Source: Candidatus Gastranaerophilales bacterium (lineage in GTDB: Bacteria > Cyanobacteriota > Vampirovibrionia > Gastranaerophilales > Gastranaerophilaceae). Taken from it: a DNA stretch of 64,000 nucleotides. Numbering within the stretch: the first letter of the stretch is position 1; every line of letters begins with the position of its first letter. Location of the stretch: positions 186,001 to 250,000 of the forward strand of contig CALUTL010000001.1 of assembly GCA_944323655.1 (NCBI GenBank), given 5' to 3'. This document shows positions 16,686-21,509 of this stretch, piece after piece. The translations under genes were made by a program, and so were the position numbers. Under the pieces are notes generated by a model. It did no database searches and was not told where the DNA came from. It was given only the letters and a program-made list of their open reading frames with translations.

Positions 16686-17387
16686 CTAAAGTTTTGAAAA
16701 ATAATCTTTTTCTGTTAATGCTTTTATTGTACACCCGGCACCATTCATATCATTTGTTGACGTTGGAGAACAGTACTCATCATTTTCACTGTAATAAGTA
16801 GTTCCTTCCGCTCCCATTGGAAGAAGCTTGCCATTTTCGCTAATCTGAAACATAAACAAATCTTGACCAAGCCTGTTTGGATTTTGCTTATAACCGTTTA
16901 CATCCACTGATATATATAAATTTCTGGATCCAGCATCTTCAAGTAAAATTAAACTTCCGTCGTTTAATACAAATTGACCATCATCAAATGGGCTTAAATT
17001 AATGTTTGTCTTTCCATTAAAAGTTTTATAATTGGTAGAATTTTTGTCAATATCTCCATTATTTTCATAATTTGGTATACAGGTTTTCTCTAGAGCACTT
17101 GCTGAAGATTCTGAACCTCTTCCACAGTCAACTAAAACATTAAAATATTCAATAATATTAGCTTTTAAATACCCTCTTTGTATAATATCTTTTGTCAATC
17201 TTTCGCCGTTCTGAGCATAATACATATTCAATGCTTGCTCTATTACGGAATAATTTTTCTTAAATGCAGTTTCTAAAGCTTTGTTACGCTTATTATTAAT
17301 TAATGACGGTAAAGTCATAGCCGCAACTATCCCGATAATTCCCAGTGTTATCAATACTTCAGCCATTGTAAAACCTGTGTGTTTCAT
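16686..17387 (-). CDS. Type IV pilin-like/pseudopilin protein
   Basis: 233 residues. The N-terminus has a prepilin site, KHTGFTMAEVLITLGIIG, with cleavage expected after Gly5 and a Glu at mature position 5, followed by the conserved hydrophobic helix (about 6-30). The remainder is a secreted globular part with a few cysteines (DCGRG, KTCIPNY, EYCSPTS, AGCTI) that could form disulfides. It likely belongs to a pilus or type II secretion-like apparatus whose other genes are elsewhere. AGAGGA precedes ATG. A related protein lies at 20805-21509. Confidence 0.88.
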   Translation of the reverse strand: MKHTGFTMAEVLITLGIIGIVAAMTLPSLINNKRNKALETAFKKNYSVIEQALNMYYAQNGERLTKDIIQRGYLKANIIEYFNVLVDCGRGSESSASALEKTCIPNYENNGDIDKNSTNYKTFNGKTNINLSPFDDGQFVLNDGSLILLEDAGSRNLYISVDVNGYKQNPNRLGQDLFMFQISENGKLLPMGAEGTTYYSENDEYCSPTSTNDMNGAGCTIKALTEKDYFSKL

Positions 17388-17442
17388 AAACAGTCCTCTT
17401 TTTGTTCTCTTTTAGACTACATACAATTTATAATATAACACA

Positions 17443-17448
17443 TAAAAT
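17443..17448 (+). promoter_or_regulatory. -10 element of a predicted leaderless start (GTG)
   Basis: TAAAAT ends 6 bases before the GTG of the small HTH gene, and no ribosome site is present. It is one of six such layouts in the window. Confidence 0.45.
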
Positions 17449-17454
17449 TATTTT

Positions 17455-17673
17455 GTGAACAATAAGACTACAAAAATTTTACAATTAGGACGCAATATAT
17501 TTAATCTGCGTAAGCAAAAAGGGCTTTCGCAAAACCAGCTTGCCGAAAAACTTGATATTTCAAGAGAACACCTCGCAAAAATTGAAACCGCAAAACGCTG
17601 TGTCAGTCTCGGACTTCTTATAGACATCTCGGAAGCGCTTGATGTCCCTGTCAAAGATTTTTTTGATTTTTAA
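17455..17673 (+). CDS. Small XRE-family HTH regulator
   Basis: 72 residues, essentially one Cro/C1-type helix-turn-helix domain (GRNIFNLRKQKGLSQNQLAEKLDISREHLAKIE). It should bind DNA as a dimer. The start codon is GTG without a Shine-Dalgarno site; TAAAAT ends 6 bases upstream, which suggests a leaderless mRNA. It is divergent from the pseudopilin gene at 17387, with 67 bases between, so it may control it; this is inference from position. Confidence 0.85.
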   Translation: MNNKTTKILQLGRNIFNLRKQKGLSQNQLAEKLDISREHLAKIETAKRCVSLGLLIDISEALDVPVKDFFDF

Positions 17674-20473: not shown

Positions 20474-20695
20474 TTATTTCCGTTTGAGAATAATTTCATA
20501 GCCGAGAATAGTGCAAATCTGCTGAAATTCCGCCAGTTTCAGGCCGTTGCGTTTAATCTTGCACGAAAAAGTGCTTTGCGGAATATCTTCGCCTGCTTTA
20601 TCTTTGAGCATTTCAAGAAGAATTTTTTGAGTAATGTGACCTTTAGCCATGACTAGGCGTAGTATTTCGTCATTATTCCAGTCTGTGATGTTCAT
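20474..20695 (-). CDS. Small HTH-like regulator, leaderless start
   Basis: 73 residues. The run HITQKILLEMLKDK, then STFSCKIKRNGLKLAEF and GYEIIL, looks like a diverged Cro/C1 helix-turn-helix of the small Firmicutes-like type. TTGATA, 16 bases, TATACT, 6 bases, ATG lies upstream with no Shine-Dalgarno site, a clear leaderless layout. It is divergent from the pseudopilin gene at 20805 and shares a control region holding a long palindrome, so autoregulation and control of the pseudopilin are plausible. Confidence 0.75.
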   Translation of the reverse strand: MNITDWNNDEILRLVMAKGHITQKILLEMLKDKAGEDIPQSTFSCKIKRNGLKLAEFQQICTILGYEIILKRK

Positions 20696-20701
20696 ATAAA
20701 A

Positions 20702-20729
20702 AGTATAAAATATTGACTTTTAATATCAA
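20702..20729 (-). promoter_or_regulatory. Promoter of the HTH-like gene
   Basis: TTGATA (20729-20724), a spacer of 16, TATACT (20707-20702), then 6 bases to the ATG. It overlaps the plus-strand promoter of the pseudopilin gene face to face. Confidence 0.7.
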
Positions 20730-20741
20730 CTTATGTAATAT
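20713..20741 (+). promoter_or_regulatory. Promoter of pseudopilin gene
   Basis: TTGACT (20713-20718), a spacer of 17, TAATAT (20736-20741). Transcription should start near 20748, inside the left arm of the adjacent inverted repeat. Confidence 0.65.
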
Positions 20742-20784
20742 TTTATTGAATATATCAATATTATATTTATATATTCAATAAAAT
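20740..20784. repeat. 16-bp perfect inverted repeat in divergent control region
   Basis: Left arm ATTTTATTGAATATAT (20740-20755) and right arm ATATATTCAATAAAAT (20769-20784) are separated by 13 bases. It covers the expected transcription start of the pseudopilin gene. It could be an operator, or form a hairpin in the 5' leader just before the AGGAG site. There is no T tract, so it is not a typical terminator. Confidence 0.7.
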
Positions 20785-20804
20785 TTCATAAGAAAGGAGC
20801 TGTT

Positions 20805-21509
20805 ATGAATTATAAAGCGTTTACTATGGCTGAGGTTTTGATTACCCTTGGAATTCTTGGAGTTGTGATTGCAATGACACTTCCGGCACTTATGTCAAAT
20901 CATCGTAAAAAGATTGCGGAGGTGCGTCTTGCAAAATTCTACAGCACGATTAATCAGGCAATACTCCGTTCAGAGCTTGATAACGGGCCTAAAGAATATT
21001 GGGATAAAGTTCCAAACGGCTTTGTTACCGGTGAAGACGGTAATGCTGATAAGACCCAATCGCTGGTAACTCCTTGGTTTAATAAATATTTAAAACCATA
21101 TCTGTTTGCGCTTAATACAGAAGTGGAAGAAAGAACCGGCGAAGGTAAAATTCTGGTTTACTTTGAAGATGGAAGTTTGCTTCAGATTAGTGGAAGTTCA
21201 TTTATATTTTTTCCTGAGGCAAAAGATTATGATGTAGTTGAAAATGAGTCGGGCTCAACAACCCGGGATACGACTTTTTCAGGAACTAAATATTTTACTT
21301 TTTTCTTTGCTCCTTATGATAAAGATAATAAATATTATTATAAAAAGGGTGTGGAGCCTTATATGTATAACTGGGATGGAACCAGAGAAATGCTTTTAAA
21401 TGGTTATTATGGCTGCTATCAGGCAAATAAACAGGAAAGGGCCTATTGTGCGGCTTTAATTCAGATGAACGGCTGGACTGTGCCTAAAGATTATCCGCTC
21501 AGGTTTTAG
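20805..21509 (+). CDS. Type IV pilin-like/pseudopilin protein
   Basis: 234 residues. Begins MNYKAFTMAEVLITLGILGV, a prepilin signal with the F-T-M-A-E helix start, then a globular domain rich in aromatic residues and a C-terminal CYQANKQERAYCA pair of cysteines. It is homologous at the N-terminus to the protein at 16686-17387, while the remaining parts differ, as is usual for minor pilins. AGGAG precedes ATG. The gene is preceded by a promoter and a 16-bp inverted repeat shared with a divergent HTH-like gene. Confidence 0.88.
   Translation: MNYKAFTMAEVLITLGILGVVIAMTLPALMSNHRKKIAEVRLAKFYSTINQAILRSELDNGPKEYWDKVPNGFVTGEDGNADKTQSLVTPWFNKYLKPYLFALNTEVEERTGEGKILVYFEDGSLLQISGSSFIFFPEAKDYDVVENESGSTTRDTTFSGTKYFTFFFAPYDKDNKYYYKKGVEPYMYNWDGTREMLLNGYYGCYQANKQERAYCAALIQMNGWTVPKDYPLRF

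Follow-up and report, generated by a model that had tools for sequence, protein, structure and literature searches.

Related regulatory systems

The rightward operator region of phage lambda, OR, combines divergent promoters and tandem operators with a leaderless repressor transcript, that of cI from PRM. PapB-type fimbrial regulators serve chaperone-usher fimbriae and follow another regulatory logic. They resemble the locus described here in that a local regulator sits beside a pilin gene (PMC12388093). Among the controller (C) proteins of restriction-modification systems, C.Csp231I binds two CTAAG-n5-CTTAG repeats, acts as both activator and repressor and is expressed from a leaderless transcript (PMC4824078). 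Type IV pilus genes have been reported in Gastranaerophilales (PMC5877343); in the open-licence literature, we found neither an account of their regulation nor a description of the module presented below.

We analysed a window of 64,000 nucleotides (G000:C1:186001-250000) from a 1.95-Mb genome, in which a small HTH gene stands opposite a pilin-like gene. The computed anatomy of the locus appears closest to that of C proteins and lambda OR. As with C.Csp231I and C.Esp1396I, a small Cro/CI-type HTH protein is combined with two inverted repeats with N5 centres and a leaderless regulator mRNA; the tandem operator by the regulator’s own promoter and the leaderless gene are here predicted from sequence. 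Where C-protein systems have a restriction enzyme downstream, the gene paired with the regulator here is a pilin or another surface gene in divergent orientation, and the two promoters overlap back to back. With lambda OR and other phage switches of the CI/Cro kind, the locus shares divergent promoters and tandem operators, and a phage repressor is the top fold match of its HTH protein. In contrast to them, the window locus shows one regulator only. Membership in either class fails, because no restriction or methyltransferase genes occur among the neighbours of the HTH gene, and because the second, divergently transcribed opposing repressor of a lambda-type switch is absent, the divergent gene being a pilin.

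Overlapping predicted promoters and a putative tandem operator

The HTH ORF (73 aa, minus strand, 20474-20695) and the pilin ORF (234 aa, plus strand, 20805-21509) are separated by a gap of 109 bp. It contains two sigma70-like promoters (20702-20741) in a back-to-back overlap, each with its -35 element inside the spacer of the other. The predicted promoter of the HTH gene (minus strand, 20702-20729) consists of TTGATA (20729-20724), a 16-nt spacer and TATACT (20707-20702); that of the pilin gene (plus strand, 20713-20741) of TTGACT (20713-20718), a 17-nt spacer and TAATAT (20736-20741). Such matches by themselves are weak evidence, since a simple scan of 4 kb returned 17 promoter sites against 10.6 ± 2.9 expected. 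The true evidence for both putative promoters is their conservation in related loci, where a TTGAC-like -35 is kept at the equivalent position on the pilin side. The overlapping pair of the original prediction is thereby confirmed. Counted from the -10 boxes, transcription is predicted by promoter consensus to start at about 20748 for the pilin and at about 20695, the A of the ATG, for the HTH gene.

An imperfect palindrome of 45 bp (20740-20784) spans the predicted pilin start. Its perfect 16-nt arms (20740-20755 and 20769-20784, around a 13-nt gap; 22 nt at 95% when extended) found no equal when the intergenic sequence was dinucleotide-shuffled 2000 times, the longest arm then averaging 8.0 nt and never exceeding 15. 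A perfect 16-bp inverted repeat over the plus start had been claimed: its arms are real, but it is not a single palindrome. What is conserved in 24/24 group-1 orthologous loci is two tandem 13-bp dyads, TTGA-N5-TCAA, spaced by exactly 20 bp (two helical turns); as these are mirror images of one another, they give rise to the 16-nt “palindrome”.

In operator dyad 1 (TTGAATATATCAA, 20746-20758), TTG and CAA are invariant in all 24 loci; dyad 2 (TTTATATATTCAA, 20766-20778) is less strictly conserved. Dyad scores in these loci range from 12 to 16 out of 16, and the dyads lie 32-33 nt from the plus -35, a distance measured from another anchor in L074. In the window, they start 5 nt past the plus -10, extend across the position where pilin transcription is predicted to begin and stay clear of the minus promoter. 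Their centres fall at about +5 and +25 relative to the pilin start, and at about -57 and -77 relative to that of the HTH gene.

A second divergent pair (16686-17673) is found 3 kb away: an HTH_3 protein (17455-17673, plus strand, E=6e-16) opposite a pilin-like gene (16686-17387, minus strand), with a gap at 17388-17454. Its HTH family differs and its layout is similar.

The HTH protein and its pilin-like partner

The AlphaFold2 model of the putative regulator (pLDDT 89) is a compact helical fold, with helices 8-18, 23-34, 40-48 and 54-63 and an HTH with its recognition helix. The best PDB match in Foldseek is the TP901-1 CI NTD, followed by HipB and C.Esp1396I, with C.BclI also among the matches; E-values are 0.09 and above, with probabilities near 1. 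The protein thus models as a Cro/CI-type fold, close to CI, HipB and C proteins. Group-1 orthologues share 68-95% identity. No curated HTH family cut-off of Pfam is reached: the only match of the window protein is DUF6471 at 15.5 bits against a required 26.8, so that by the cut-off rule it is not a member. Several module members give weak full-length matches to DUF6471 or HTH_26; our search found no literature on DUF6471. A sequence search against solved structures returned nothing informative, and PHROGs and NCBIfam gave weak, mixed matches. A phage or plasmid origin was considered and rejected, the protein having no match in phage or plasmid records.

The ATG of the HTH gene (20695) lies 6 nt past the minus -10 and is preceded by no Shine-Dalgarno-like sequence, which makes a leaderless gene, as first proposed, a fair prediction. 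It gains support from the relatives: in 51 of 55, a -10 (TATAAT/TATACT) is placed 6-8 nt ahead of the ATG. A Shine-Dalgarno-like sequence precedes 2 of 55 HTH genes versus 36 of 40 partner genes.

The putative regulated cargo, a pilin-like protein beginning with MNYKAFTMAEVLITLGILGVV, has such a sequence (AAGGAG) upstream. It matches Pfam DUF6613 (E=9e-20) and carries the class III signal motif FTMAEVLITLGILGVV, with N_methyl at 20.9 bits just below its cut-off of 21.2. Its model contains a helix at 8-60, and a fold search against the PDB gave no meaningful match. The same genome encodes one Peptidase_A24 (prepilin peptidase), one two-domain T2SSF (platform) protein and at least 28 pilin-like genes; across the genus, their number per genome ranges from 10 to 91.

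Recurrence of the module and co-variation of its operator

Relatives of the HTH gene come mostly from metagenome-assembled records of gut or rumen, many of them under the name Candidatus Gastranaerophilales or Melainabacteria. A divergent pilin starts directly upstream of the HTH gene, within 450 bp, in 40 of 57 relatives; three further ones (L074, L076 and L088) have pilins with long leaders. The same holds for 24 of 60 distant paralogues fetched, two of them in the window’s own genome (L119 and L120). Other pilin starts nearby number only four in both sets together. With 10-91 pilins per 1.5-2.2-Mb genome, adjacency in divergent orientation would arise by chance in about 1-2% of cases, a rough estimate and not a computed null, and the counts are non-independent trials, the genomes being related. 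A profile search finds 0-19 small HTH genes of this kind per genome in the family.

The architecture is kept in several genomic contexts. In the window, the neighbouring genes, recognised from sequence, are the pilin and those for an RsgA-like GTPase, for EF-P, and for a biotin carboxyl carrier and a carboxylase. Judged by this computed recurrence, the pair of an HTH gene and a divergent surface gene is a recurrent module of the Gastranaerophilales, gut-dwelling relatives of the cyanobacteria. At an RnpA/ProC-like site, locus L091 is a remnant in which the HTH N-terminus and the pilin are both gone, which suggests loss of the two as a unit. The contig of L063, labelled Fusobacterium sp. CAG:439, has both the module and the synteny typical of Gastranaerophilales; its label seems mistaken.

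Two clades of the HTH protein that are only about 35% identical share the recognition helix SCK, and both have TCAA-type half-sites (35/38). A clade with SAK, 74% identical to one of the SCK clades, has TAG-type half-sites instead (8/9), CTATATATAAGTAG...CTATTTATATATAG, and the helix ANR is paired with TATTTTATAAT...ATTATA. By this computation, the operator sequence tracks the recognition helix and not overall relatedness, in what amounts to about two independent changes, the half-site types having been set by eye before counting. Among distant paralogues, a single-palindrome statistic, which overlooks tandem dyads, is significant in 13 of 48, and all but two of these palindromes are centred 16-20 nt past the plus -10; in some distant paralogues a clear palindrome is missing. 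One suggestive case is L114, with a TAG stop at codon 10 of the HTH gene, a retained divergent pilin and a partly degenerate operator.

A proposed local switch and its alternatives

Conservation extends jointly to the gene pair, its two promoters and the operator, whose sequence shifts with the recognition helix. These observations favour the compact divergent switch that had been proposed, with the HTH protein as natural ligand of the repeat, and the core of that interpretation is likely right. At a probability of roughly 0.7, we read the locus as a self-contained divergent switch: HTH dimers would bind the two adjacent dyads covering the pilin start, block the pilin promoter and favour their own leaderless transcript. 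As the promoters overlap, polymerase would be unable to occupy both, and blocking of one should benefit the other by mutual exclusion. Protein bound at the dyads, roughly 57 and 77 bp ahead of the HTH start, could also help HTH transcription. The position of the dyads, at about +5/+25 of one gene and -57/-77 of the other, thus favours repression of the pilin with the HTH promoter free or helped. Binding, dimer stoichiometry, repression as opposed to activation, positive feedback and a releasing signal are what we infer.

The HTH protein might instead bind the dyads and activate the pilin, or mainly repress itself, much as restriction-modification C proteins on their tandem inverted repeats both activate and repress (PMC4824078). 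We consider this unlikely: dyads at and past the predicted pilin start are in a repressing position, and, being clear of the minus promoter, they make self-repression by simple blocking improbable. Placed at the plus start, the operators speak for repression over activation, short of proof.

That another regulator binds the dyads while the HTH protein acts elsewhere is very improbable. Among the matches listed, genus genomes with the HTH gene have the tandem operator at the HTH locus with 0-2 mismatches, the remaining 2-mismatch matches being dissimilar; genomes without a group-1 HTH gene lack it at 0-2 mismatches, bar one dissimilar match. No second such site occurs in the window’s own genome, and paralogous modules bear operator sequences of their own. 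Very improbable too, and disfavoured, is action of the repeat as an RNA hairpin in the pilin leader, for although the 16-nt arms could pair (-10.6 kcal/mol in the window), transcription should begin within the left arm, predicted energies vary from -1.6 to -15.5 among orthologues, and conservation falls on the half-sites of the individual dyads, which track the HTH recognition helix.

The reach of the proposed switch is probably narrow. The original prediction also had it control pilus-type secretion in general, which is not borne out: with up to 2 mismatches allowed, the genome contains a single tandem operator, at the HTH/pilin locus, against the 28 or more pilin-like genes. A pan-pilin regulon was rejected on the same count; one pilin is the likely target, and the locus is likely a local switch of that gene.

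Exchange of the cargo

The wider value of the finding lies in a repeated, cargo-swapping module. At the same EF-P/RsgA-like site in another genome (G007, locus L061), the HTH protein is 94.5% identical and the intergenic region very similar, with a pilin body only 27% identical. Conversely, L066 has a more distant HTH protein (81%), yet a pilin body 56% identical. At other sites, the same promoter-operator region stands ahead of a Stealth-type enzyme in L078, of a glycosyltransferase-like gene followed by a CDP-glycerol glycerophosphotransferase in L083, and of DUF1796 proteins in L096 and L098. In some distant paralogues, the partner is a small helical-looking protein of about 55-79 aa. Computed over these loci, the predicted control cassette stays while its cargo changes.

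We would entertain, tentatively and with more doubt than belief, that Gastranaerophilales possess a family of local switches, insulated from one another and possibly bistable, in which an HTH protein and its own operator form an exchangeable socket for a surface gene (a pilin, or an enzyme of the wall or capsule). If true, cells could diversify their displayed surface proteins under a fixed control cassette. For an uncultured gut lineage that carries dozens of pilin-like genes, with one prepilin peptidase detected in the window’s genome, the proposed switch provides a testable explanation of how cells might choose the pilins they express. The paralogous regulators with differing operators also form a natural series, usable to read a recognition code.

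Anonymous and probably helical partners of about 55-76 aa replace the pilin opposite many distant HTH paralogues: L118, L134, L135, L148, L155, L156, L169, L171, L174, L175 and L089. The first of these, a paralogue in the window’s own genome (G000:C6:92603-95203), has a strong palindrome, TATCACATATATGTG...CGTATATGTGATAA, past the divergent promoter, opposite a 66-aa protein.

Finally, the prepilin genes of L074, L079, L093, L117, L121 and L122 contain in-frame expansions before the FTLAEVL processing site. They often repeat FTLAE and an “ATHV” peptide, and several are related at the DNA level; possibly, they are repeat elements that are tolerated since processing removes the leader.
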